A stretch of 64,000 nt of DNA, from NCBI GenBank assembly GCA_037042915.1, contig CM073197.1, positions 4,154,001 to 4,218,000 of the forward strand, in the 5' to 3' direction. Both the position numbers and the translations under genes were made by a program. Below, one piece after another: positions 38,381 through 57,234 of this stretch (the stretch's first letter is position 1; each line of letters opens with the position of its first letter). The notes under the pieces were generated by a model, which had not been told where the DNA came from, did no database searches, and was given only the letters and a program-made list of their open reading frames with translations. The stretch comes from Auricularia sp. M13 (Eukaryota > Basidiomycota > Agaricomycetes > Auriculariales > Auriculariaceae).

Positions 38381-39221
38381 ATGACTCTCGACCTGAACAT
38401 GAACCGCGAGGCCCTCATCTCGCTCATGGCGAACCCAGACGGCTACCTCAACTGGATCCAGCTCGCGCTCGCAGCTGCAGGCTGCTTCCTTGCCTACCAG
38501 GCGGGCAGTATCGCCTGGACGTACTGGCGCCACACGCGCTCGCCGCTGCGCAAAGTCCCTGGGCCGGAGATTGAGGGCACAAACTGGCTCACGGGAAACC
38601 AGCGCGTCCTCTTCGACGGTGAGGGAATGACAAACCTGGAGAAATGGGGGGATGCATATGGCGGGAACTTCACGCTGCGCTCGGCACTCGGAGTAAGTCC
38701 CTCCAGCCGTATGTCCCACATTTGCTACAGTCTGACAAGTTTGAACTTAGAGCTACCAGCTCGTGACGACGGACACGCGCGCTCTAACCCACATTCTTTT
38801 TGCCACCGGCTCTTTCCATAAGCCGATGACGGATCGGGGCAACCTACTGATAATGCTTGGAGAGGGTGAGCTTCTCGTCTATCTAACACGGGATGCTACT
38901 GACAGAAGCAGGTGTACTCTACACGGAAGGTGACAGGACTATTACTTGCATATTTTCGCGTATTAAGGCAAATTACGACAGGGGAGCAGCACAGAGACCA
39001 CGTACGGCGTTTCACTGCTCGAGATTTTGTTCTCTGATGTCTTCCTTCAGCGCAGAATTCTCAACCCTGCTTTTGGATACGCTCATGTTAGACAGATGAC
39101 GGAGAGCTTCGTGGACGTCTCCCTGAAGGTGAGATCAATATTCTGTCCCTGGGATTCCACTCACAAGTCCCACACGCTGTTAGATGCGCGAAATCTGGCA
39201 CAGCAAGTGTGTGGCCGCCGG
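38381..39221 (+). pseudogene. cytochrome P450, 5' part, interrupted by a 16-kb element
   Basis: Exons 38381..38692, 38751..38865, 38912..38929, 38982..39001, 39051..39128 and 39184..39221 join in frame. The N-terminus has a membrane anchor (LNWIQLALAAAGCFLAYQAG) followed by the proline hinge RKVPGPE, typical of microsomal P450s. Then come the B-C region (TDTRALTHILFATGSFHKP) and the helix-C motif EQHR.HRRILNPAFGYAHVR. The last exon stops at 39221, where the transposon begins; its partner resumes at 55290. Downstream of the insertion the gene carries the heme-binding loop. The host enzyme would be an ER haem monooxygenase; the substrate is unknown. Confidence 0.8.
39218..39221. repeat. 4-bp target duplication (CCGG), left copy
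   Basis: CCGG directly precedes CTATGG at the left end and directly follows CCATAG at the right end (55286-55289). Confidence 0.75.
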
Positions 39222-39566
39222 CTATGGAAAGACGGACTGGACAGCTTCGGATCCGAGATGGACAGCTTCGGTGATCGAGCTTCCGAGTCCCGGATCCCGA
39301 GTGATCCCAAGTGCCATCCGGTGCCAGCATGACGTCCTGCCGTCATCGTCGCCGCCGTCATCGTCGCCGCCGTCATCGTCGCCGCCGTCATCGTCGCCGC
39401 CGTCATCGTCGCCGCCGTCGCGGCCGTCGTCGCGGCCAGGTCGCCGCCATCGACAGTGATCAGCCGCGGTTCCTTCGCGCCGCCCAGCGTCAGATGCCGG
39501 CTGCCACCACCAACCCACCGACATCGTCGCTGTGGCCGCCGCCGACATGTTGCCGCCGCCGCCGCC
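39222..39566. repeat. left terminal inverted repeat of the 16-kb element
   Basis: Matches the reverse complement of 54985-55285 nearly base for base outside the minisatellite, up to the CCGCCGCCGCC run near 39566. Confidence 0.85.
39344..39425. repeat. 15-bp minisatellite in the left TIR
   Basis: About five copies of the unit CGTCATCGTCGCCGC, against about two copies in the right TIR, so the two ends differ in length only by this array. Confidence 0.8.
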
Positions 39567-40047
39567 CCCATCGTCGCTGCCAGGTCGTCGCCGTAGACAT
39601 TGAGCTAAGGCGCAGCCAGCCGTGCAGGATGCTCCTTCCAGGGTGCTGGCTTGCTTGCTCGACGTCACGCAGGTGCAGCTATTTCTTCTCTGCCGGTCGC
39701 CGGACCACTTGAATAATTTGACACTGCAGCCTCGTGCAGCCTAGCTTTCGCCCTGTTTCTGGTGCGTACGGTGACCACACTTGATATCTCGCTTGCACTA
39801 ACTGGGTTTCAAAACTGCAGTGCTCGGACTACGGAGGAGATGCGAGGCGCCTGGCGACGCAGGCGCAGTGCGGCCACAATGACCTCTGTGCGCTCTGCCG
39901 CCACCCAGATGACACTACCCCGCCATCGCTCAGCATTGTCGCCCCCCACCAGACCCTGCGCATAATGAACGCGCCGGTGACGGCAGCTTCGGCATCACGA
40001 ATCCAATCTCATGTGTCGCGCCAGCTGCTGCCACCAACCCACCGCCA

Positions 40048-40553
40048 TAGCGCTCAGTTAGTTACCGGAAGTTAGTAACTTTGTTACTAACTTGTTAGTT
40101 ACTAACGTGTTATTAACATCTGGGCGGCAGGGAGACTGTGTTATTAACTTTACAGGTACATCAGAGCAGCGGGTTGGAGCAGGGATCTCTGCCTCAGAAG
40201 TTTCCGTTGGGTGACCCCCAATTCTCAGAGCACTCCCAGAGTCCAGATTTCCTCTGGAAGTTATTGCATTGGAGTGATCCCTGTTTGCTCAAGCCTTCCG
40301 CTGGCTGGATTGATGGGCCTGAGCCGTATTTGAGGGCAGCATTCATAGATTGCACACTCAGGTGGACATTAAACGGGCATTCCGAGCCACTCACACTCTC
40401 CAGTCACTACACTGGGTGAACTCGGGATGCACTCTCGACTTGTATGTATTACATAAGCTCATTGTTATCAACAATGTTAGTAACACGGTGTTACTAACAC
40501 CTAACGTTAGTAACGTGTTAGTTATCTCATCGGAGATAACTAACTGAGCGCTA
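40048..40553. mobile_element. hAT-like MITE, copy 1 (inside the 16-kb element)
   Basis: The ends TAGCGCTCAGTTAGTTA and TAACTAACTGAGCGCTA are perfect inverted repeats, flanked by an 8-bp duplication CACCGCCA (40040-40047 and 40554-40561). The interior is rich in GTTAGTAAC repeats. 506 bp, no ORF. An 8-bp duplication is the hallmark of hAT elements. Sister copy at 56495-56990. Confidence 0.88.
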
Positions 40554-40561
40554 CACCGCCA

Positions 40562-41282
40562 TCGTCGCGCAAGTTGCAATAGTAGACAATGAGCTATGGC
40601 GGTTTCCCCACACGTTAATTACACCTGTGCGCAGCACCAGGCGTTGGCCGCCTAGCAGGATGCTCCCTTCGCGTGCGCTGGCTTGCAATGCACCACTATT
40701 TCTAAATTTACCCCCCCCTTCTTGCGTAGTTCAGTGTGATCAATATTCCTTGGTGCTAAGTGGCTTTCAGTGCCTGCAGAAGATGGAGGAAGATGGGCGG
40801 GACTCGGCCAGCATACATGGGAAGAAGCCGTCCTGGGTTTGCTGGTGCAGTCCGGAAATTTCCGGTCCCCTGACATCTCTCCAATAACCAACCCGCTGTC
40901 ATTGGGGCAGAGCCTACTAAGCTCCCAAACTTTGTTGTTAGCACCAGGTGCATATGAAGCATGAATTGTGATGGTATGAAGAGTCACACTAAACTCCTTC
41001 CCTCAGTACGGAGTACATTTTGCTTTGCTAACGCAACGTGATTACTGCAATCATCATACTTCGCGCACACAATGAAAGCTGTTACTTAAGCAGATTGAAA
41101 GTTTACCTATGCTCAGGGTTCAATATAAGGATACCTAAAGGTGCCACGGAGTACAGCATATGCGTCAGAACAACAATATCGCAGCTCTACCGACTAAACA
41201 GATTTATTTTCACCGGTTGAACGGTCGACTATGCAGAGTAAAGGAGGCGGCAGCAGTTGAATGCATGGGAGTGACAGTGACG
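40562..41282. other. spacer inside the 16-kb element
   Basis: No gene seen between the MITE and the alpha-kinase stop codon. Confidence 0.35.
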
Positions 41283-44020
41283 CTAACCTTGTGCTGCAGG
41301 GAGTTGTGCTGCGTCAGCACGCTTCTGTGCGAGCTCTGGAAAGATTTGACCATCAGCAATAGCATTGACTTTGGCGAATATAAACTGGCCTGGAGCCTGA
41401 TCTTGCGGAAGGGGTAGACCAAAGAACTTGCAATACTCGTTGCATTGATGGTGGTCGACCATCGATGCCCAGCCAGCTTGCACGTTGCCATCGGCGAACT
41501 TGTTTGTGTATTCACTGATTACTGTGTTATTAGATATATAGACGGGGATGCTCAGGGACGCACGGTGAGGTAATAATCTGTGGGTCGGTGAGAACACCAT
41601 CGGCACCTATAATGCGTGTTAGTGTCTCGCGTCGCGTATCCAGGAGAATGCTAGCCTTGATAATCGGCTACAAAAACTTGGCCGTCCGTCTTGGCCCACT
41701 GGACGTGTTGAGAGAAGGAGAGAAAACGAGCCTCAAGCGCAGCGTTGTCAGGCAGATCCTCGTAAGGTACAGTATTTGCGTTGCCGATGTACTTGTACCA
41801 ATTGGCCACGTTCAACCGCGTTTCGATGAGAAGAACGCTGCCAGGGCGGTCTTGCTGGTCGGCGACGAACAGGCCGCCGTTAACGAAGCGGAAATCAGGG
41901 ATTTTGGGGCACAGTGTGGTGTCCCTGCCTGCCGCAGACATGCGCCGAAGCTCGCGGTCGACGTACCCAACCACCAGGTCCTGCAGCGCGTTGGCCCACT
42001 GCAAGTTGCGCATCTCCTTCAAGAGCACAACCAGAGCGTCCCTATTGGCCATCACAACTGGTTTGGCCAGCCGCGAGGCCTTCGTAATCGCCTTCTTGAC
42101 ACAGACTGGCCCAGTGAGCCCCGAGTCGTCAAACCGCTCCTTCATCTTTGCGTCGAGAGAGGGACATGTGAGCCTGCCAGCATACGCTGCCTTAAACGCG
42201 CCAGCATTGCCCAGCATAGTATTGTCCATGACGAGGTTGACATCGATTGGGTCGCCCAGCGTATCTGCTGCGAGTGGGGTTGCACGCACACAGTCTGCGA
42301 ACGAGTCGTGGTGTGGAACAAGATATAGCTTCCCAGACATTGTATGCTGCACTGCAAGAGAGATAAAATATCAGTTATCATACAGAGAACAATGCTCGAG
42401 ACGTACATAGCTGCGAAGAATTCATCCTTGAAATTTCGGCAGTTCCGGCGAGGGCAGCTCGCAGCTCAAGGCGCTCTGGAGATGCGAACGTAGCTGGAGC
42501 ACGCAGACGCCGGGGTGGTGTAACAGGCTGTCCTTGGGAGCGCGTAGCCTGCACATATAGTGAGCAGGCTGGGTGGAATGGGCGGTACATGAGTCGACTC
42601 ACATTGTATGTCCTCTTAATACCAGCTGCAGGTTCTACCTCGGTGAAGAGTACCTCGCGTGCAGAGGAGCGTGTGACCATAGCGGAGGACGTAGATGTTT
42701 TCCCCTGTTGGATCAGCTGACGCGTGAGTAACGGTGTTTCATCTCAGAGTGACTAGCCAGACAGACCTTGGCATCGGCCACGCCATGCTATTTTGACTCA
42801 TTCAGTCTCAGAGTGAGGCGTGTGTTGACATGGTGTACGCACCTCTTCCATACATTTGTACATGAGGTTGACGATCCGAAAGCTAATCCGGAAACCCAGA
42901 CGTATGGGGTTGTAGCCCTTGCCCTTCTTCGTCAGGTGAGGCGCCAGAGCTGCAACGTCATTTGCAGGGTCGGCAGGGGCGGTCAACTCGGTGAGGTGCG
43001 GCAGGAGGATGAACTCGGCCTTCTCGTCCGGGAACGGGAAGGATCCCAGTGTATATTCATCCCACTTGGGAATGATTGCTGCCAATGCGAGCTTTCGCAG
43101 TTGCTGCACACCAAGCGAGACGTGAACATCCATGCCCGTTATCACATCCTGAAACGACATTCAGATGCATGTACAATATGTAAAATTTACTTACACCAAC
43201 TCTGGAAGGCGAGTTCTTGCCCTCCGGAACATACACAACGGCGACGGAGCAGGTGACCGTGCTAGAGTTGGCTGGTGCAACCTGCTGAGCCTGTCGTGCG
43301 GCATTGCCCTTCTGCTGATTATAAAAGGCGTGGGCCGCGTTGTAGCCCGTCGTAGACAGCATCGATGGGACCAAGGCTGGCGGTGTCGGGGCCTGGAAGA
43401 CCCCAACGGCCTGGACAGGCATATTTGACCCTGGCCCAAAATTTAGTCACGCTGACGGCTGACACTGTAAGGGAGTCCAAGCAAACCTTGCTTCCAAGCA
43501 GCAGCAATGCCCTGACGTGCATCCGCGCATATCTCAGGCGATAAATAAACGGGTGTCGCAGGATGGGACTGGGGACCGGGGACGCCATACTGGACAAGAT
43601 TCATCGGTGTGGGAGGTGGAAGCTTTGGGGGTGGCGGCGGCGGCATCGCCTGACGGTTCACCTGCACTTGCGGTTGCGTCTTCACTGACTCTGCTGTGCA
43701 AATATATATAAGAAAGAAATGTATGAAGGCGTGCGTACGAACCTTTTTTCGTCTGATAGTACCGGTCGCATGCTGGACAGAGGTCCTTGTAAATTTTCCC
43801 GGTCGGCGTTTTGGAGTAACGGGAGACCATAGGCGTTTCGGCAGGGACAACACCACCCGGCACAGTCAAGCATTTTTCGCCGCGTCCGCATTGACGAAGG
43901 CCAGCTGTGCGACCCTGCGCAGTGCCTGCCACTTCCGTGAACTGGACGGACTGCTATGGTGGGGATGAGCCCAGAACTGTGACCTGTTCCTGCGCAACGC
44001 ACCGAGGGCTGCCCTGACAT
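41283..44020 (-). CDS. alpha-type (atypical) protein kinase, cargo gene
   Basis: The ATG at 44020 (MSGQPS) is followed by a 49-bp intron and a Cys-rich N-terminal motif (LRQCGRGEKCL ... LCPACDRYYQTKK), as often seen before fungal alpha-kinase domains. Further exons run down to a stop at 41283 with several short introns. Kinase landmarks: LYLVPHHDSFADCVRA region, LLIETRLNVANWYKYIGNAN, then FVADYQG, GVLTDPQII and FADGN, and the zinc-binding end HHQCNEYCKFFGLP, which corresponds to the HxCNxxC signature of alpha-kinases (MHCK/eEF2K type). The enzyme would phosphorylate Ser/Thr in helical contexts. Exact exon borders in the middle are not fixed. It lies 475 bp from the divergent integrase gene. 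Confidence 0.8.
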
Positions 44021-44495
44021 TTGCCAATCCTGAGCGGGGGAGGGAGAGCGTCAGTAGCAGCGCTTCGCCGGACTGAAGCTTAAGTCACCGGTGCAAATCA
44101 CACAATTGTAAGCATGATCCCAAAGTTGCTGCGCAAGGAAGGATTGCCGTGAGCTTCAAACGTCACAGTTTTGTCTTTAACCGCGTTCTGCTACTCTGTC
44201 TACCCTGTCGGGTCTGAATCCCAATGTTTAAACTTGCACCAGGGCGTCCGGCCCGATAGTCCACCATACAAGCTCCGTCTCAGACGATTGCCATGATGAC
44301 AAATGAGATTCGTCATAGCTTGGCCTGGCTATCGGGGATTACGCGTCTGATAAAGCAACTGATTTTGCAGACGGACTCCTCCTCCCCTCAAACGTTGTGC
44401 ATGGGAAAGAGAGCAAACCAGCACAAGCCATGCCGTGAGTGCCTACCGTCCAGATCGCACTCATATTGACCTGCTCAGCTCCGGAGGAGGACGTC
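44021..44495. promoter_or_regulatory. divergent promoter region between alpha-kinase and integrase
   Basis: 475 bp separate the two start codons, which point away from each other, so both promoters must lie here. No clear core elements recognised. Confidence 0.4.
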
Positions 44496-46217
44496 ATGCC
44501 AATAATCGAGAAATATTTCAATTTGCGGTGCTCCGATGCGAAGATCCTCGAGTATGTACATGAATCCATTGATCTGAACGTCTATGGAATGAGGTTGGGT
44601 ATTTATTAACTGCTTGAATTCTTCTAATCAATGATCTCAGTCTCAAGACGCTCAAGCGACTCAGAGCCAAGTACGAACTCATCAGCACTCGCCAGCAAGG
44701 CCACACCATCGAGAGCATCGCACCCTACATTGCCGAAGTACGCAGTCGGCTGCCTGCCATTGGAGCTGGAGATATGGTTTCCTCATTGTGGCATGATCAT
44801 GGCATTCGTGCCTCGCAGTGCGCACTATCCTTTGCTCCTATTGTCAATTCACGCCTGACATGCTCATTTTAGACATCTTGTTCTCGCTCACGACAAGGCC
44901 CTGGACCCCGTTGCAGTTGCTGCCCGAAAGCGCAACGGCCTCAAAAGGCGACGTTTTGGGCGACTGGCGTTAACGACGTCTGGTCATTCGATCAGCATGA
45001 CAAATGGAAGCGTTTCGGTCTCCTTCTCCACCTCGGCGTCGAGATATATAGTGGCAAGCTACTCTGGCTGAAGGTCTGGTGGAGCAATCGCCAGCCTCCG
45101 CTGCTGGCCAGTTACTACCTTGAAGTCGCACGTGAACATGGGGGCGAGTATCTTAATCTATCAACTATACAGTGAATCTAATCGTTGTGCAGGTGTTTGC
45201 CTCGTCACTCAGAGTGACCCAGGCCCTGAGAACTACGGCATCGCGAACCCCCACACAGTTATACGCCAGCATCTCGACTCCTCGCTCGTCGACACAATCC
45301 AGCATCGATGGATGCGTCAAGGCCTCAACGTAAAGCCGGAGATCAAGTGGTCAGTCTTTCGTCGCTCGTTTTCACCCGGCTTTGAGGGTCTCCTCGAGTA
45401 CGGTGTTACGATGGGCATCTACCTACCAGACGACGGTCTACATGTGTATGTCCGTCTTCCACATAGGCGCAGCTCACTCACAGTTGTATAGTCTCGTATT
45501 TCGCTGGCTCGTTATTCCTTGGATGCAGCTGCAGCTGGACAACTACCGCATCAAATCCAACCAGAAGCTTCCTCGCAGCAACAAGAAAAAGTTTCTGCCG
45601 CATGGAATTCCGGACATGATCTTCGAGCATCCACACGAATACAATGCTATTGATTACAAGGTACGCCTTCATCTTTTTTAATATATTGTCCTCATTGCTA
45701 TCTAGGTCAAGGTCGAACCCGCCCTTCTGGACGCCATACAGGCGAAGTATGCCCCCCCGGATCATCCGGTCTTCCAGCTCGTCCCGCCCTGGATTCACGC
45801 TCGCATTGTGGCTGCTTACCAGCGCCTTGGTCAACCTGCTCTTACGGTGGATACTCTTTGGCCGATCTACTCTGCTCTGCTCGAAGACGTTCGCGGACAG
45901 CTCAATCAAGACGAGCGGGCTGCAGCACAGGGTTTACTCATCCCCGGCGAAGATATACCCGAAATGCTCCCCGAGCTCCCTGGGAACTATGTTCCCTGGC
46001 CCGACCAAGGTGAGTTTGAGTTCAACAAAGTACCAATCAACAACTAATATTACTGCCAGTCAAAGCAGACACACAGGAGGTCGAGTTTTCAGACGACGAC
46101 GCACAGAGTGTTGAGTTCTCGGACAATGATGATATGCAGTACCTCGTCTTTGGCGAAAGTGATGATGGCGAGGAGTCCGATGGGGGTGGCGAGGTAGAAT
46201 TTAGTGATGTGGAGTAG
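44496..46217 (+). CDS. integrase-core (DDE) protein of the 16-kb element
   Basis: The ATG at 44496 gives MPIIEKYFNLRCSDAKILEY, a helical N-terminal region, with short introns (the first near 44615-44658). Core motifs: WSFDQHDKWKRFGLLLHLGV (first Asp), TQSDPGPENYGIANPHTVIR (second Asp), then SPGFEGLLEYG (candidate Glu), and further FRWLVIPWMQLQLDNY, KFLPHGIPDMIFEHP, KYAPPDHPVFQLVPPW. The C-terminus is a strongly acidic tail (VEFSDDDAQSVEFSDND). This layout matches a family of Agaricomycete proteins annotated as integrase core domain. It is the best candidate for the enzyme that moves the element. The gene looks nearly whole, with at most about one interruption. Confidence 0.72.
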
Positions 46218-46420
46218 ATACTGCAATAGATACATGAGAATACCCTTGGGAGACAGATGGTTCTACCACAGAGCTCTACCTTAGACTGTGTGCACGCATT
46301 CGGCAGCAAGCCCGTACACCTAGGTGTCTTGCTTGCATGTGCGCAATGTAGAAAGAGGGGCCGTTGATGATCGCGGAATCGGAGGAGGTAGTGCAAAATC
46401 CGACGTTTATTGACAATTTA

Positions 46421-47600
46421 CTAGTGCAGAATCGGTACGTACACTTTCCGCACATCGTCCACGTGCTCCAAAAGCACCTGCATGCCGCTCACTATAGTCA
46501 CGCACACGTACGGCGGCCGTGATATTGCGAGCCCGAGCTCCATGCAGCTGGTACGGGTCAGAGCATGTTCGGTCACCCAAAGGGCATTCTGACCAAACCG
46601 CGGTGCCACGCATGCAATTCGCAGCAGGATTCGGTTGCTCGAGATCGACTGCATGCCATGCGTGCACCAGGACACGCGCTGAATGCCTGCGAGCGTGAGT
46701 GAGCGAACTCGGCCGTCGAGTGAACCAGCCGGGGACGTACTCGTGCTCTGTGCACTGCCTGCGTTCCGCGATCGCGTGGGTGTTGGGCCTGGAGTCCCTG
46801 AGCTCGATCCTGTGCGCGGAATCGCACGATAATGAGCCCTTGTTTGGGCGCACGGATGGATGCTTCCAGGTACTCGCACCAGATTTGCACCTTGCGCATC
46901 GATAAAACACCGCTTCTGCGGGTCGGAAGCGTCAGTGGGGCCTATCGCCGCACAGAATACGCAGGTCGCGCACTGCGTTTTGCATCGCATCGGGAACGTC
47001 CGCGTGAGGTTGGGCGTCTCGCGCAGACTTGTGCTCAATCTTCCGCAATTCGAGCTCAATCGTCTCGGAGCGTTCGCTGGGGGTAGCCCTAACGTCCCCA
47101 AGCCTAGATATGAGCGCGGAATGTCGGAATAACGAGCGCACCGAGAGCGGTGCTCGTTGTCGTCCCCGTCGCACAAATAGCGTCGCCGCTTCACAGGCCG
47201 ATGTGGAACGGCTTCCGCGCATGGACTGCGTCGTCGGGGCATATGTGCGTGCTTGAAGCGTGTGCGACGTGTTGTGGATTGCACCGGGTGCGTCTGCGTG
47301 ACGTCGGCCGTCTCAAGCGGAGTCATCCTCGACCCTCCGTAGATCACTTGCCCCGCGCATTTTGACGATCGGAGAAGTTTGCCGTGGATGGCAGACACCT
47401 CCTCGTCGTGTGGCTTTGCGCATTTGCACCCGGCCGTCGAGATCGCGAGAAAAGTGTGCCGAACGGGTAAAACGAGCTGCAGACAGCGTCAGATGGTCCG
47501 CACTGGCGGTTGGACGATGGGAGGTATAGCATACGTACCCGATAATGATCTTGAACGGATTATTTCCACGGGAGAGGCCTCTGAGAGCGGGCGCGAGCAT
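46421..47600 (-). CDS. unrecognised gene region inside the 16-kb element
   Basis: Minus-strand segments with protein-like composition lie in different frames: 46421-46730 (GRVRSLTLAGIQRVSWCTHG, VCVTIVSGMQVLLEHVDDVR, stop at 46421), about 46800-46900 (QIWCEYLEASIRAPKQGLII), 46932-47110 (SERSETIELELRKIEHKSAR) and near 47540 (NPFKIIIG). This is what a multi-exon gene with short introns looks like, but I could not fix the splice sites. No family recognised. Confidence 0.35.
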
Positions 47601-48619
47601 TGTTTAAAGCTGTCTCATAAATTTAATTCCTGAGTAAACGCAGAGTGCTCGAACGGCGGTAAAATACATACCCATCGATAGCTCATATCGAGCCAAGTCA
47701 GCTGTGAGCAGCTGTGCGAAATCTTCAAGCCATTGTATTACGAGTTATGAGCAAGGTCTGCAAAGTCAGTCAGTGACTGTCACCGCGATGGTGACCTCGT
47801 ACATCCATCACACAGAGGTACGTACCTCCAAAACGTCTCTCTTGCCAGTCAGAACGGTTGTTGCGGTCTGCAGTGCAATGCCGTTAGGAAAAGCAAACGC
47901 GTGAGGACATCAGGAAAAGCGTACCGGATATTGGCCTTCTACAACGCCGTCGTGGCGTTGTGCAAGCCGTGCGGTGAGTTATGGGGAAATGGAAGTGGTG
48001 GGGCATTGGGAAAGCGGGCGGCAGAATCGCATCTGCGCGCGATGGTTGAAATAGGAGAGCAAGTTGCGGACTTTGCCGTTGTGCCGCCTGCCCGCGCACT
48101 GAACATGACAGATGTGAGAAAACCTCATGACCAGGTTAACAAGCAGTCTGTTTGCATGGCTGTGCGTGATTTTTGGATCAAATGCAGAATTCATTCGGAG
48201 GGACCTCCGAGGGACAAACAGAACTGCAGCAACGCAACGCAGTCTGACCATGTGGTCTCTCAGCCTCTCGGAAGAAGCAGATCCCAGGGGTTACGCATCT
48301 TGATGTGCTGTGCAAAGGCTTCGGAGCGCCGCAGGAAGCTCCTCAAATGGGAAATTGTTGAGTTACATGGCGATAGTGCATATATTCGCCATACCTACAA
48401 GTTGACGGGAGCTTAATGACCAGAATATACGCTCTCAGGTTCCTCCATTCCAGAACGGCCGGCTGCGCCAGCAAACACCTTGCTTGGCTTGCTTCTTACA
48501 TTTCCGAACAACCCCACGCTTGTAACCCCCGCGAACCTCGCAGACAAAATTACTAAATAATTCCCAGTCTCATATTCAACGTGTGCTAATTCTTCGGAAA
48601 TGCAAACTGTTCAACCAGT
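47601..48619. other. spacer inside the 16-kb element, no gene supported
   Basis: A 171-aa plus-strand frame (47901-48416) has no motif; support is too weak to call it a gene. Confidence 0.3.
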
Positions 48620-48746
48620 GGAAGTTTTGTGACTAGGCCTGTGCCCGGGATTTGATAAAATAAACAAATACTTGATCAGAGAATTGAACCCTCGCCTCAA
48701 AGGCGCACCAGGTAACCTCAGTAGGTAAACCACTTGGCCATCGTCA
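48620..48746 (-). mobile_element. tRNA-derived SINE-like unit
   Basis: On the minus strand, from about 48746, the sequence contains an A box TGGCCAAGTGG (48730-48740) and, 40 bp on, a B box GGTTCAATTCT (48680-48690). This is the internal pol III promoter of a tRNA (Ser/Leu-like A box), but no cloverleaf acceptor stem closes. An AT-rich tail region follows, so a SINE head or tRNA relic fits better than a working tRNA. Confidence 0.5.
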
Positions 48747-49253
48747 CTTATGTGAGGAGACCAATGCTCTCGGCCCAGTGCACATGACGGCATACCATAT
48801 CTGCTTAGGAACAAAAGAATTTGCTGAGAAATGAGACGCTGCGTACGTGGCGCGGTTGCGACGCATTCTGCGTATTTCCCAATTCCCCTTCATTTCCCGG
48901 GCTTTGTCGAAACGCGTTTGGGCGGCGCCCGAGTCCTTAGCCCATTTTTCGCGTTCGGAGGGCATAGGGGTACTCCCTGTGCCCACCCTCTGCAGAACGG
49001 GCACTTGTTTGAGCTCAAGCCGTCCAATGAGCTCTGTGAGCGAAAATTCCAGCGAGTGAGAACGGACTGGCGGCGCGAAATCAATGTTGCGGCTCGAGCA
49101 GGGGTGGCTAAATGCGCAACACAGGCACCCCCGGCGGCCTCAGCGCCGACTCTTCGCGCTTCCCACACCACACATCGTACAATACGGCATGTGTAAGCCT
49201 CCGCAGCTGCTTCCCGAAAAAGGTACGGGCCTTGCGAGCACTCCGCGACGGTA

Positions 49254-49737
49254 CTGTAGAGCTAATAATTATTACCGCGTCACGCGTCACGGAGGCCTCA
49301 CGGCCCGGTAATAAACGTGTTTTGTAACATGTCACGGGCCTCTCCAGGTAACCGGATGTCACGGTGTTCAGGCATTCAATTTCCCACTTCAGACTGTCGG
49401 GAGCGGCGCGCCTTTGGCGCGCACAATGTAACACTACATAACCGGAAAGTCTCACACAATCCCTGCAAAATCACAATGGTCACTGTCATGATTATCGCTG
49501 TGCTCCATATCAGGCTTTTAAGATACCTGAGGAGGGCCAGGAACAACCCAGAAATGAGATAATCTCACTTAAAGCATCTTTCTCACAGTCTAGTTGTGCC
49601 TTATCCTGCTGAGAAGTGCCAATTCAGCTTTTTTTTTCCCAGCCTGCCTGGCAATGTCACATGTCACGGGTGCCCCAAGGTAATGTCTCCGACGTGTCAC
49701 GGTCAAACATCGCCGGTAATAATTATTAGCTCTACAG
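49254..49737. mobile_element. TA-flanked MITE inside the 16-kb element
   Basis: The ends CTGTAGAGCTAATAATTATT and AATAATTATTAGCTCTACAG are perfect inverted repeats flanked by TA (49252-49253 and 49738-49739). Subterminal TGTCACGG is repeated near both ends. 484 bp, non-coding. The TA duplication fits a Tc1/mariner-type enzyme. Confidence 0.82.
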
Positions 49738-49739
49738 TA

Positions 49740-50666
49740 TAAAGTTGGTGCGGAAGCGACGCTCAGCACCTTGCTCTCTCCTTCCGCCCACACCTCCCGC
49801 ATCGGAAGCTGCTTGATGAAAGGAGGTTTATCCTCGCTTCAGCTGACGCTCGTCAGCCCGCCGTTCGTCGATGGTGCTGTCGATCGCGGTTCGTTAGCCA
49901 TTGCGGTCCGACCTTCGACTCCCTTTCTACCCTTTGCACCCGGATTGCGCATACAGCTGCGCAAGCTGTTCCACGCAGGCAAGGTGAGTGTTCATCCTTT
50001 GTGATTCAAAGTTCAGAACTCACGTTCGGCATACGAGACCGCTGTAAAAGCACCGCGTCTTGAGCGCGCCCTGGGATAGGTTGGACTTCATAATGCGGGC
50101 CCTGCGAACGTCCAGCAGCATTGTTGAGCGCCTTGGAAGTGTAACGGTGGCGATCGCGAGTTGTCGGCCGTAGAGTACGAAAGGAGTCTGTCAATGGCAA
50201 TTCGCGTCAGGGGCGTGCGACGAGGCGCTGAAATAGTAGCTAGACGCACCTGTTGATGGTCACGGTCTCGTTAGGTATGAAGTCAGATGGACTGAGTGAC
50301 GGGCAGCACATCGGCCTGTTCCGGACTGGCATGCATGGGAAAGTTTTATTCATTGTGAGGCCTTGGGATTTCCGTGACTCTTCATATGCCCAGAAATGGT
50401 GTATATTATGGAAAAGAATGTACTCCCTTAATACTAAGCCTTAGTAGGCTCTGCCCCGTCGCTGACAGCCAGTCTACTGTCGTCATGTGGGTGATATCAC
50501 ACTGTCACGGCTCGCATTCTTCGGGCTTTCTTTGTGACTCATCCAATGCTATTGGGTGTGGGAGATGCTTGTGTGGGCTCTCATACATTACGGATTGCAA
50601 ACTACACTGATAAAAAGCGAAAACAAGCAGCTCGGAAGGGCGCGGTGCGCTCAAGTGCATTATATT
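49740..50666. other. spacer inside the 16-kb element
   Basis: No gene supported. Confidence 0.35.
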
Positions 50667-53071
50667 TCAGCCTAATTCTGTTGTGTTCGTGCTTTCCGTC
50701 AGCACTCGTGCCTGCTGCGCAATGCCAGCATCTATAATCTGGGCATCCGCACATCGTCGCCTTTTGATGACGCGAGGTTCTGTGTCAGCCTCAGAATCCG
50801 ATTCGTCGGACTCACTGCTAAAGGCAGCGGCCAGTGCATCCAGCTCCGCAACGCGTTCTTGGAGTGCTTTGTCCACGCGAGCAGCCTCTGAACTCGTCAG
50901 AGCACGCTTACGCTTTCCCTCCTGGTCGCAGGGCAGATGAAGCCCGCTTACGCTTTCCCTCCTGGTCGCAGGGCAGATGAAGCCCGCGCCTTATCTCAGC
51001 CCGGAGCCGCCGAATGAAGTGGGCCCTAGCATTGCCCCGAAGCGCCTTTCGGTCTGCATTACTGATCGCCACGCTGTGATGCGTAAGAGACTGCATAGGG
51101 GAGAAGATATACAGATATACGCACTAGGTCTGTTGCCCATTGCTAAAGACTTGTGCGCAACCTTTGTACTCCAATGGCCCAATTGCGACGTCCCTGGTAT
51201 TGTCTACAATATGGTTGAAGAGACTGGACGCTCGCGTTTTCTCGCCTTCTTCCCTGGGTGAAATATCAGAGTTTGCTCAGCACATGGATGTTCCGCGTAC
51301 TCTATGTCGACTGGCGGGCTATTGATGGACCAGACGGGCCCGTTTGCGCAGCGATAGAGATGTGTCTTGATGAAAGCGCGGTTCGAGATTGCGCAGAACT
51401 GAGCGTGTGGTAGAATCATGGGACTGTAAGCTGGAAGATAGGTCAGAGCATCCACCACGCCTTTGGAAGGTCATCATGCAGCCGAATAAATTCCAATACA
51501 CATACCTCGCTTCCGAAAGACCGCAGTGACTGGATCATTGAGTGTAGCCGAAGGCGACATGCCAGCAGCGCGCAGTTGCTCGTCGTTCATGCCAAAGATG
51601 AGATGCGCGAGGTGTGTGGGTTTTGTGAATGCGACAGCGATATAGGTCGGCTCGAAGGGATCGTTCCGGATGGCTGCCCCGCTTTGAAGTGCAGACTTGG
51701 GATAATAAGGCCAAAAGCAGTGAGCAGAAGATTGTTGCATACCTCGAATTCTCGGACAGTAGCAGCAAAGCGCTTGTGCGTAGTCATACGGTCCTTGGCC
51801 CAGGCAAGGAGATAGTGACTAGCAAATCCCTTGCGCTGCTCGCGAGTCGGGGCAATGACTGTGCCCGCATGAAGCGCAGGCCGGATGACCTGTTCCAAAA
51901 AGTCCTTCTTGGCAACGTGCACAAATGCAAACATGGCCTCTAGGAGTCGCCCAACGCGCGAAGGATTGGTGAAAAGGTCGCATACGCGAAGTCCAGGCCA
52001 GAGACCTGGCAAATGTGAGTACTCATCGTAATCACCTGGCATGCCGAACCTGCAATGATGAAGACTTCCGAGGCACTGTAGAGGCCAACGCCGTGAAACA
52101 TTTCTACCAGCTCGCGTACTAACGCCAGGGCGAAGTGAGTGTTGGCCGCCAACTTGTCCCACTCCCTGTCAAGCCAGTCTGCAAAAAACGCGAGGTAGTC
52201 GAGGTTGTCTTCCGGTGCAGCCGGATTATGACCCGGATAGATCTCTGGTGGCGGCGTGGGGCGGGAGCGTACCCATTGAGGCTGTCAACTCGGTTGAGAA
52301 CTGATCTAGGCTCAAAACAATCAACTCACAAAGGCAACAAGGTCCTTTGTGAGAAAGGCGAGCACATATTTTGGGAACTGAAGAGCAATAATAATCTTGT
52401 ACGACCTATGCGATACCTATGCAAAAAGCGTGTAAGATGATTCTTGAGCATGATAGGCCTAGTTGGGCTCACCTCAGCCTTCACCTCCTGCACGGATTCA
52501 CGCCATTCCTGTATGCTGAACAGCTGCAGCGATGTGTGCGTCAGATAATGCATCTGCAAGTATCAGTAGCTGCACTATACAAACATGGAAGACATACATC
52601 CAGGAAGCAGACACCGAAGTCGAGCACAAGAGACCGGGCCGTGTAGTAAACATTTACGAGACGGAATGAATCCAAAGTCGCAAAGCCAGGGGGCCACAAG
52701 GGCCCGCGCACCGGTGCCTTGGTGACATCTGACTTCTTGCGACGCGAAGTGTTGCCCTTGGATTTCTGCTTCGAGCCACCGCGCTCCCGTTTGTCGCTGG
52801 CAGAAATCTGGACAGGCAACCGAGCCTTTTCCCGAGCACTGGCCTTGGCCTTCGCCGACTCCTCCTTGATGGGGTCTGCCCAGATGGCCTCGAGCGGCCA
52901 GCCCTCTGTCGAGCTTTTCTGGACAAAGAGATCGTCGGGGTCAAAGTCGGTGAAAAACAGGGCCGCGCGTACGAGATAGACAAGATGAAGATAAGACGCA
53001 ACCAACTCCCGTATCTCGGGCATAGCAGAAACACCGAGGGGAAGATAGCAGAGTACGAAGAGGAGGGCCAT
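50667..53071 (-). CDS. multi-exon protein of unknown function, cargo of the 16-kb element
   Basis: The ATG at 53071 gives MALLFVLCYLPLGVSAMPEI, followed by RELVASYLHLVYLVRAALFF and TDFDPDDLFVQKSS, then a Lys/Arg/Ser-rich stretch and APVRGPLWPPGFATLDSFRL. Later exons include LQLFSIQEWRESVQEVKAE (about 52480-52560), FALALVRELVEMFHGVGLYS (about 52100), NPSRVGRLLEAMFAFVHVAK, PTYIAVAFTKPTHLAHLIFG, MILPHAQFCAISNRAFIKTH, and a C-terminal coiled, acidic end (VAELDALAAAFSSESDESDS, stop 50667). Many short introns separate them. Family not recognised. A 40-bp tandem duplication (50905-50987) lies in the last exon and is not a multiple of three, so the copy may be damaged. A TATA-like sequence lies about 100 bp upstream. 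Confidence 0.55.
50905..50987. repeat. 40-bp tandem duplication
   Basis: The segment starting CGCTTACGCTTTCCCTCCTG occurs twice head to tail with a 40-bp period and no visible differences, inside the last exon of the unknown cargo gene. Confidence 0.85.
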
Positions 53072-53467
53072 AGTAAGTTGGGAGAGCGGTGACTAGGTTT
53101 CCATACCATATTTTGGGTATGGCAAGTGCGAGGGAAGGAGCCGGGAGATACACGGGCGGTACGCAGCAAGTATAAAGGAGAGAGCAGAGTTAGATCCAGG
53201 ACAGGACAGTCAAAAGCTACACACCTTTGCACCCATGTTGGCTCTATAATCTTGGATTAGAGCAGCTGTAGGTAGAGCAACGCAAAAGTTTGGTCCTGCA
53301 GCAGGCACTACGAGCGAAGGACGCGAAGGACGCGAACGCGTGATTGCGGGCTTTGAATAGCGTGCACTCCGCTCAACTTTGCCGTCTGCCGGTTATGCAT
53401 GACAGGATCACACAAACAGAATAGAGAAACCTTTCCAGCAGTTACATCTTGTTATTCAAAATGCAGT

Positions 53468-54490
53468 TTAACCGTCCTGGCACCGCAGCACATCGTCCTC
53501 CTGCCGCACAAACTCCTGATCGCGCTGCAGCTGCTCAGCGGTTGCACTGCGCGCGCGCACCCGCCTCCCGCTGCGCGCAGGCCTCGGCCTCTTCACGCCT
53601 AACACTGTCGATATGTTCTTGCTCATGCAGGCACGCTCGACCCGCTCCAGCTCAGCGCGCCGCGTCTGCTCAGCGCGCTTTTGACTCTGCTCAGCGTCGC
53701 GCCGCAACCGCTCGCTCTTCTCAGCCTCGCGGCAGCCGCTGGCGCTCCTCGGCCTCGCATTTTCGCCGCGCGCGTTCCTCTGACTCGCGCTTCAGCCGCT
53801 CGCACTTGCCGGCAGCTTCGTGTTCGCGCCGCTGCCGCTCACGGTCCTCGGACACGCGCCGCTGCTGTGCGCGGCTGTGCGCCTCGGCCTGCTTGCGCTC
53901 AGCCTCGGCCAGCTCGTGTTGTGGGCCTGCTCGCGTTGCTGTCGTGCAGGCAGCATCCACAAACGCCTGCTAGTCCTGCGTTTCGCCTGCGTCTGCAAAG
54001 AAACAGGCCGAAATTGCGGTGTCACGGGCTTCGCATCACCCAACGACGATGTTGGCGCGGGCGCATACGGCGAATGAGTCTACGAGGGCGGTCCAGCCGC
54101 AGGTTGAGCGTGCATCATGACACGCGTCGCCGGCGCACTGGGTGTCTGAGCACTGCTTGACTCGCCCTCCTCTGCGGCCCCAGCCCGCATTGAATGTCAT
54201 AGAGTACGTCGGCGCTTGGGCGGCGGTCGTCGTCGTCGGTGGTGTACGAGTTCTCTCAGTGAATGACCGACATTGGGCTCGAAATGCCGACGTACTGTGA
54301 GGCGCAGCTGTCGCCGCCGTTGCTGTGCGTGTGCTGCTGGGTGTGGTTGGGCGATAGCCGAGGAGCGGTGGGGGGACAGGCTGCGGCAGCGCCTGGGTCA
54401 CGGCCTTGCGCGCGCAGTCTTGAGGGTGTGGATGGTCATCATGTCATGTCCGCGTGTGCATCCGTTCTTCACCCCACGAGCACACTGCAG
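53468..54490 (-). CDS. Arg/Glu-rich coiled-coil protein, cargo of the 16-kb element
   Basis: A minus-strand region begins with Pro/Thr-rich sequence (about 54400-54150, PPLLGYRPTTPSSTRTATA). It continues as a long charged helix (ELAEAERKQAEAHSRAQQRR, REHEAAGKCERLKRESEERA) and then, in another frame, DAEQSQKRAEQTRRAELERV and EQLQRDQEFVRQEDDVL to a stop at 53468. The frame change near 53710 could be an intron or a one-base shift. The composition predicts a dimeric coiled coil. No family recognised. Confidence 0.45.
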
Positions 54491-54984
54491 TGAAAGTGAG
54501 TTAGCGCAAGGGGATCTTAGAGCACAACCAACATACACACACCAGAGATCGGGTGGTATTGAGATGAGTAGCATCGGGCGCGGCGCGCTGCCTCAAACAC
54601 TCGACCGAAGCGTTGAGCCGCTCAGAATGAGACGGCGGGCGTCGCTCGCGGCGGCTGAATGCATGTCCTGTAATCCATATGCCCTCTGAGCAGCGACATA
54701 GGTGTCGAGGTCGTAGCGTATTTCCCATGGCAGCATAGTCAAGCGAGCACTAGGCGGAGGGACCGAGTGCACAGCCGCTACAGCTGCAGGAGCGGTTATC
54801 GATGGCGGAGGCCGGCAGACGATGAACAACCCCTGACGTCGAGCAAGCAGGCCAGCACAAGCCAGCATCGTCAAGGTGTGTATTGTGCACGGCTGTCGGC
54901 AGCCGGCACCAGACGCTGTGCGCAGCCGCGCTGGATGCGTGAAAACGCCGTAGCCTAATGCGTATGGCGGCGACTTAGCGGTGA
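54491..54984. other. spacer before the right TIR
   Basis: No gene supported. Confidence 0.3.
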
Positions 54985-55285
54985 CGATGGCGGCGGCGGC
55001 AACATGTCGGCGGCGGCCACAGCGACGATGTCGGTGGGTTGGTGGTGGCAGCCGGCATCTGACGCTGGGCGGCGCGAAGGAACCGCGGCTGATCACTGTC
55101 GATGGCGGCGACCTGGCCGCGACGACGGCCGCGACGGCGGCGACGATGACGGTGGCGACGATGACGGCAGGACGTCATGCTGGCACCGGATGGCACTTGG
55201 GATCACTCGGGATCCGGGACTCGGAAGCTCGATCACCGAAGCTGTCCATCTCGGATCCGAAGCTGTCCAGTCCGTCTTTCCATAG
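54985..55285. repeat. right terminal inverted repeat of the 16-kb element
   Basis: Reverse complement of the left TIR with fewer minisatellite units; ends in CCATAG directly before CCGG. Confidence 0.85.
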
Positions 55286-55289
55286 CCGG
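55286..55289. repeat. 4-bp target duplication (CCGG), right copy
   Basis: Pairs with 39218-39221. Confidence 0.75.
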
Positions 55290-57234
55290 CGGTATAGTGA
55301 AGCTCGACGTCCTTCATTGGCTCAGCAAGGCAGCTCTGGACTCTATCGGGAAAGCAGGTTCGTAGTTCCTCGCTGCTGCTTCCATCCAGCTGATGACCGT
55401 TCCACCTGGCCCCTAGGATTTGACTATGATTTCGGCGGCCTCAGCGGACGTGATGGGGAAAACGAGCTCGCCGTTGCATTCGATAGGGTCTTCCGAGCCG
55501 ACAACACACCCAAGATCCAGCTCCGCATCCTCGTCGACAACATATTCCCCATAGTCCGCGCGATATTCGTGAGTTGGAGAGTTCATGTCAATGACTGCTA
55601 AAGCGACACTGAGCATGTTTCATTTGCAGCCCAGCTCGCGCGCGCGGGAGATCGATGAGAGCAAGAAGATGATGGACGATGTTGGCATGCGCATCGTCCA
55701 GGAGAGGAAGCAAACTGTTTTGAGCAACATGACTGGCGGACGCATTGATCGCAAGGCCGTCGGTGGAAAGGACCTCATTTCGCTCTTGATTCAGGCAAAC
55801 CTGGCCGAAGACGTGAGCCCGTCGCAGAAGCTCTCCGACGCCGAGGTCATGGCGCAAATACCAGCCTTCATTGTGGCAGGTGAGCGAGCACGGGCAGTGA
55901 ACTGGATCAGGACACGTTGCTCATGTAGACCCTCAGGTAACGAAACCACAGCGCCAGTTTGTTGGTCGTGTTTTATCTGCCTTAGGCTGACCATTTCCCA
56001 CAGGAACTCGACTACGTGGGCCATGTACGCCCTGGCTATGTACCCGGAGACCCAGAAGAAGCTTCGCCACGAGCTGCTGCAGGTCGGCACGGAGCACCCG
56101 TCGCTGGATGCGTTGAACGCTCTTCCGTATCTCGACAAGGTCGTGCGCGAGACTGTCGCAACGTTCATCGCGCGCGAGGCCGTCAAGGATGACGTCGTCC
56201 CCTTCGAGCGGCCCATCAAAGATGTCGATGGAAACCTGCACTCCCAGCTTAGGTGCGTGTCCTTGGAATTTTGCATGTTTCACATTGCAAGTGCTGACAA
56301 CTCTCAGACTTCGCAAGGGTGATCAGGTACTGGTGCCGATCTGGGTCATCAACCGCAGCAAGCACATCTGGGGCCCCGATGCAGACCAGTTCCGGTGCGT
56401 TGAGGTCCAGCCGCGATATTGCGCTGTGGCGACTCACGCACGTTTCAGCCCTGAGCGCTGGGACGAGGTCCCAAGAGCGAAGCGTCGTCGATCCTAGCGC
56501 TCAGTTAGTTATCTCCCGCGAGATAACTAACAGGTTACTAACGTGAGGTGTTACTAACATGGTGTTAATAACATTGTTAATAACATTTGAGCTTATATAA
56601 TACACTACAGGTTGAGAGTACATCCTGGACATCACCCAGGCCAGTATAATAGAATAATTGAGGTGCTCGAAGCAAGTTTTGAGGGCCTGAGCTGTATGTG
56701 TGGTGCGCAAAGACAGTCAACCCACTTCCCATAGCATTGGGAAGCCGAGGTACACCAGCATGAGTGATACTTGACAACTTAGAGGGAGTACAGGTCACTT
56801 AATTGGTATGAGAACTGAGATTCATATGACAGGAGTCCTTCAGGGCCCAGGATCCCTTCTCCGGCCAAGGGCTTTGATGTACCTTCAAAGTTAGTAACCC
56901 GACCTTCCCCCAGGACCTGTGTTACTAACGTGTTACTAACTAACACGTTAGTAACAAAGTTAGTAACTTTCAGTAACTAACTGAGCGCTAGTCGATCCCA
57001 GGAATCACGCTGAACCTGATGAGCTTCGTCGGCGGCCCGCGCGCGTGCACCGGGCACCGCTTCACTGTCGCGGAGATGAAGGCGCTGCTCTTCCACATCG
57101 TCCGCGGGTTCGAGTTTACACTCGGGATCGAAGACTCGCAGATCTGGTCGCGCACCGGCAACCTCTTGCGTCCGCAGCTCCGCAAGGACAACACCGTCCA
57201 GCTGCCCATGTTGTTGACCCCCGTCGCTGCGTAA
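55290..57234 (+). pseudogene. cytochrome P450, 3' part
   Basis: Starts inside the exon cut by the 16-kb element (GIVKLDVLHWLSKAALDSIG, exon end 55357). Introns then separate FDYDFGGLSGRDGENE, the EIDESKKMMDDVGMRIVQER exon, the I-helix (AFIVAG, then an ETT core), TTWAMYALAMYPETQKKLRH, DKVVRET, DDVVPFERPIKDVDGNL, IWVINRSKHIWGPDADQF and PERWDEVP. The heme loop FVGGPRACTGHRFTVAEMKA and the C-terminus, with stop 57234, lie beyond a second insertion (56495-56990). Around RET the sequence reads ETVA, so the Arg of the ExxR motif and the usual RLHPPVP segment are missing. The codons just before the MITE do not share a frame with the heme exon. The gene is dead even without the large insert. Confidence 0.78.
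56495..56990. mobile_element. hAT-like MITE, copy 2 (inside the P450)
   Basis: Same TAGCGCTCAGTTAGTTA ends as the copy at 40048-40553, with its own 8-bp duplication GTCGATCC (56487-56494 and 56991-56998). 496 bp, non-coding, with GTTAGTAAC-type subterminal repeats. It separates the PERWDE exon from the heme-binding exon. Confidence 0.9.

Follow-up and report, generated by a model that had tools for sequence, protein, structure and literature searches.

What is the 16-kb stretch, bounded by long inverted repeats, that interrupts a cytochrome P450 gene of Auricularia sp. M13? The window analysed here is a stretch of 64,000 nucleotides, C5:4154001-4218000, from a genome of 52.1 Mb in 14 contigs, and feature coordinates are given as window positions. 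A reading of the sequence alone had proposed an integrase-type transposon of a new kind, possibly related to Ginger elements. The present analysis supports a complete, recently mobile, integrase-type DNA transposon with extra genes. We consider it very probable that positions 39223-55284 are one DNA transposon of the IS3EU superfamily inserted into the P450 gene.

Borders of the element and its insertion site

Comparison of the inverted repeats with each other and with a second copy placed the borders at 39223-55284 (~16 kb), with the termini TATGG..CCATA. The long inverted repeat with matching borders proposed from the sequence alone is confirmed: it measures ~340-390 bp, the outer 60 bp are identical at the two ends, and the number of 15-bp tandem units differs between them. 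Its start was previously set at CTATGG, which is off by one base at each end, since both the second copy and the small sister elements begin at TATGG. The exact repeat abutting the two ends is the 6-bp GCCGGC. The 4-bp CCGG duplication claimed earlier is thus not the actual one, and was apparent because GCCGGC contains CCGG.

When the flanks were rejoined with one GCCGGC, a single open reading frame ran across the site. Cytochrome P450 homology is detected by Pfam to the right of the element (E 4.6e-16). Judging from frame and position, the left flank would be part of the same gene. On this reading, the element sits inside a broken cytochrome P450 gene.

A second full-length copy and a set of small sister elements

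A genome search with the left repeat returned six places. Four are the ends of the window element and of a copy on C1; the fifth is a single end on C6, and the sixth is a short C4 match confined to the 15-bp tandem unit. The search for other copies suggested by the sequence-only reading thus led to a second full-length copy (C1:8124866-8140072, 15,207 bp, reverse orientation) with the same ends as the window element. It aligns along its full length; identity is 97-99% in the four longest blocks and 92% in a left-end block of 826 bp. Global alignment of the two copies gave 14,801 matches, 130 mismatches (0.87% of 14,931 columns; 104 are transitions) and 18 gaps. The C1 copy starts at TATGG and is flanked on both sides by its own 6-bp duplication, CACCTG (reverse complement CAGGTG). 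The two copies share their ends but differ in their flanks and in their 6-bp duplications, which shows that a unit of ~15 kb moved as one. Some variants are common to both repeats of one copy but set it apart from the other copy; a 7-bp deletion, for example, is present in both repeats at C1. This suggests exchange between the two ends of one element.

Allowing at most three mismatches, the outer 22 bases occur at 35 places in the genome, compared to none for the reversed control. These places correspond to 15 paired elements (the two large copies and 13 elements of 0.9-4.7 kb) and five unpaired ends (C6:1449348, C2:2742357, C4:855298, C8:3393131 and C9:3303104). An exact 6-bp duplication abuts the ends in 14 of the 15 pairs, namely both large copies and 12 of the 13 small sisters. 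One of these small sisters lies at C1:5988373-5993034. For the 4.66-kb sister on C1, blastn similarity to the large element is confined to the ends, and none of the 24 transposase matches in the genome falls inside it or inside the other paired sisters.

The transposase gene

The integrase was first recognised in the element by motifs that we took to be those of the family, and was then modelled exon by exon. The model was built by eye, without a transcript, and the end of exon 7 was set by the length of the open frame at a third, partial locus on C6. The integrase-core gene found in the sequence-only reading is indeed present near the place proposed, with coordinates now corrected (Table 1) and with six introns. 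Exon 4 of the window copy contains a 1-nt frameshift, and a 162-bp insertion interrupts exon 5 at C1. At the C6 locus the frame is open and encodes 455 residues under the seven-exon model. The genome contains these three close loci and nine weak matches with 24-32% identity.

The profile search proposed earlier gave a result with the C6 protein: residues 142-316 match the Pfam family rva_4 ("Integrase core domain"); the match has E 1.1e-4, spans 165 of 194 positions and falls below the curated cut-off. Profile comparison (hhalign) with two proteins of this genome that match rva_4 more strongly aligned residues 133-224 (E 0.0027) and placed D149 and D208 opposite D residues of the family. We infer from these matches that the gene encodes a DDE transposase. 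Six-frame Pfam scans of the element (X at stops) missed the integrase, probably because introns and the frameshift split the gene. One exon scanned alone likewise gave no match.

Genes that travel with the element

The further genes anticipated inside the element are an alpha-kinase gene and a second conserved gene at 50802-53083. The hand-joined exons of the former match PF02816 (E 7.6e-17) and eEF2 kinase in the PDB (E 1.2e-6). Six-frame Pfam scans (X at stops) detected the kinase at E 0.0047 and also gave an SMBP match, which at E 0.29 is no better than chance. The gene probably has further exons upstream, extending towards 43.95 kb. The gene lies on the minus strand, divergent from the plus-strand transposase. 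Of five alpha-kinase matches in the genome, two are those of the full-length copies. A genome scan for Tet_JBP at E 0.01 gave 23 matches, four of which exceed the cut-off. Neither full-length copy contains one, although a PE-type gene that has diverged could escape such a scan.

The product of the 50802-53083 gene has no match in Pfam. The window copy of this gene contains a 40-bp tandem duplication (50905-50944), which is not found in the C1 copy. Compared with a diverged relative on C6, the ratio of non-synonymous to synonymous substitution (dN/dS) is ~0.09 over 559 codons, against 0.26-2.4 in the five remaining frames; an overlap between two aligned pieces means that a few codons entered the count twice. 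Synonymous sites are near saturation (dS ~2.3). Such values indicate that the gene is under purifying selection. No comparable coding signal was seen in the region 46427-46819, where dN/dS is 0.49-1.3 over the six frames. Relatives of the 50802-53083 gene are present at ten other genome places, one of them only at E 0.017. Two rva_4 integrase loci lie 16-20 kb from such relatives (C1:258978 with C1:275449-276761, and C8:806620 with C8:825839-827143), and possibly represent further large elements. In viral contigs, a peptide-pattern scan gave three candidate stretches for a relative of the transposase and one for a relative of the 50802-53083 gene, none of them confirmed.

A mosaic relative on C6

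The C6 locus (C6:1449348-1460229) is ~98% identical to the window over the block 43914-46233, which contains the transposase, compared to 66-76% elsewhere inside and 88-89% at its sole end repeat. The difference between this block and the other inner parts points to a recent history of its own. The 50802-53083 gene lies between the end and the transposase, in the same order and orientation as in the window. This mosaic pattern suggests that recombination or conversion may have taken place between element lineages. Where the similarity to the window stops, C6:1460230-1468763 contains direct repeats of ~700 bp, 86.7% identical and 7.9 kb apart, and looks like an insertion of a long terminal repeat retrotransposon. 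A broader proposal, which we put forward tentatively and at somewhat less than even chances, is that IS3EU is here a module-swapping lineage of large multi-gene transposons. The alpha-kinase, the transposase and the selected 50802-53083 protein would form its accessory set, and the transposase block would have passed recently between lineages whose other genes are near synonymous saturation.

Classification of the element

According to the accessible text of PMC12730594, fungal IS3EU elements have TAYGG..CCRTA ends, inverted repeats of more than 30 bp and 6-bp duplications, and in all TET+ families a TET/JBP gene lies between oppositely facing transposase and alpha-kinase genes. The TATGG..CCATA form of these ends is found here at both full-length copies and the 13 small paired sisters, with the duplication length and the long repeats described above. 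The integrase-type DDE core is shared as well, through the sub-threshold Pfam match, although this feature is not specific to IS3EU. As in the TET+ families, the alpha-kinase is oriented opposite to the transposase; the window element differs from them by a further conserved gene, placed beyond the transposase as seen from the kinase, and by inverted repeats of ~340-390 bp. The accessible part of PMC10045372 gives TA..TA termini and usually 6-bp duplications for complete IS3EU families, and places the first catalytic D of IS3EU/GingerRoot 100-300 residues from the N-terminus. The window element agrees in its termini, its duplication and its proposed first catalytic D149, and differs by its extra genes, the superfamily being compared here by its description and not by a reference sequence. 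IS3EU sequences have also been reported in Ganoderma, as stated in the accessible part of PMC8955403.

The element is thus assigned to IS3EU, and not to Ginger or to a new class, because its TAYGG..CCRTA ends, 6-bp duplications and opposed transposase and alpha-kinase genes are those published for fungal IS3EU. It is a large relative of fungal elements already described, and the novelty of kind suggested by the sequence-only reading does not hold, given the elements with these same characters in the accessible text of PMC12730594. The literature covered contains no description of an IS3EU element carrying this additional gene, with supplements and most subscription journals outside that coverage.

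Starships are fungal elements with cargo that use tyrosine recombinases. The window element is likewise a fungal element carrying cargo; unlike Starships, it has an integrase-type enzyme and long inverted repeats. The six-frame Pfam scans of the element gave no match to a tyrosine recombinase, though they also missed the intron-split integrase.

Alternative explanations and proposed mechanism

Several observations weigh against the IS3EU assignment or the insertion proposed here. The placement is drawn from the ends, the duplication length, the gene content and the core match. The rva_4 match reaches 22.5 bits for a curated cut-off of 26, the hhalign probability is only 11%, and the third catalytic residue, E249, was assigned by eye, giving a proposed spacing of 58 and 40. 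The ncbifam models gave no match to the transposase, and the PDB gave nothing relevant, only a chance-level chitosanase. Neither full-length copy has an intact transposase frame. The paired sister C10:2780804-2781988 has a 5-bp instead of a 6-bp duplication. The published TET+ families have a TET/JBP gene, and none is detectable in this element. Finally, neither the left P450 exons alone nor the peptide across the rejoined flanks matches Pfam.

The relation to Ginger proposed in the sequence-only reading was built on a 4-bp duplication, the length given for Ginger1 in the accessible part of PMC10045372, with 4 or 5 bp for Ginger2. CCGG at both window borders and the integrase-type DDE core agree with a Ginger1 or Ginger2 element. 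However, exact 6-bp repeats flank the window element, the second copy and all small sisters but the C10 one, and the termini are TA..TA, so that a Ginger element is highly improbable. It could also be that another enzyme is the real mobiliser and that the integrase gene is cargo of an otherwise non-autonomous element. The broken integrase frames and the distinct history of the 43914-46233 block would be consistent with this. We nevertheless regard it as unlikely: the six-frame Pfam scans gave no other transposase domain, although they missed the integrase too, and both the termini and the length of the duplication agree with IS3EU as published, a superfamily with an enzyme of this type. Nor is there much probability that two IS3EU ends once trapped unrelated host DNA and that the inner genes are accidental. 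The large size of the element and the ten other genome places with relatives of the 50802-53083 gene could be explained in this way. Against it, an alpha-kinase opposite the transposase is the layout published for IS3EU, the 50802-53083 gene keeps its order and orientation in the C6 relative, and purifying selection acts on it.

For the preferred reading, a mobile IS3EU transposon, we propose the following mechanism. The integrase-type DDE transposase, of which the window copy carries a frameshifted version, would recognise the TATGGAAAG... ends, excise the element and join it to the two target strands at positions 6 bp apart. The small sisters resemble the element at their outer ends but have no copy of this transposase, and would be moved in trans. 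The alpha-kinase and the 50802-53083 gene travel with the element. As no more than a best guess, the kinase might phosphorylate the transposase or host chromatin proteins, favouring transposition or expression.

The locus provides an IS3EU element with clear borders and recent mobility, represented by two full-length copies that are almost identical and accompanied by a group of small relatives. Movement extends to a whole unit of ~15 kb, in which a second travelling gene, kept by selection, joins the alpha-kinase. With defined ends and several copies, the question of why a DNA transposon carries an alpha-kinase could become testable.

Other features of the element and its surroundings

Table 1. 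Positions of the element's ends, genes and nested insertions in the window.
Feature	Position	Strand	Basis or remark
Target site duplication, left copy, GCCGGC	39217-39222		Exact 6-bp repeat abutting both ends
Left terminal inverted repeat, TATGGAAAGACGG...	39223-39612	+	Contains the 15-bp tandem unit
Nested insertion resembling a miniature inverted-repeat transposable element (MITE), 514 bp including one copy of the 9-bp duplication CACCGCCAT	40040-40553		No counterpart in the C1 copy
Alpha-kinase gene, exons of the C-terminal half of the kinase domain (DYQG, NKFADGN, CNEYCKFFGL)	41400-42370	-	Pfam, PDB, reading frames
Integrase-type transposase gene, 7 exons, one GC-AG intron	44401-46047	+	Three copies read side by side
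Transposase exons	44401-44434, 44479-44593, 44641-44817, 44873-45143, 45193-45443, 45484-45660, 45706-46047		
Second nested MITE-like insertion, 26-bp inverted ends, TA duplication	49251-49736		No counterpart in the C1 copy
Multi-exon gene without Pfam match	50802-53083	-	Kept in the diverged C6 relative
Degenerate stretch, charged coiled-coil-like peptide with internal stops	53643-53933	-	Similar stretches on C1 and C3
Right terminal inverted repeat, ...TTTCCATA	54946-55284	-	
Target site duplication, right copy, GCCGGC	55285-55290		Exact 6-bp repeat

On C3, an alpha-kinase (C3:1749530) and a distant transposase relative (C3:1759070) lie 9.3 kb apart. Their assignment to one further element is not supported: within C3:1750001-1759600, tblastx at E 1e-3 detected no similarity to the window element, and there was no TAYGG..CCRTA pair or inverted repeat. 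The test is weak, since the kinase lies just beyond that stretch and tblastx also missed the known transposase relative.

MITE-like repeats related to the 40040-40553 insertion are found at many places in the genome. A diverged inverted copy of this family lies at 56495-56990 of the window, ~1.2 kb to the right of the element.

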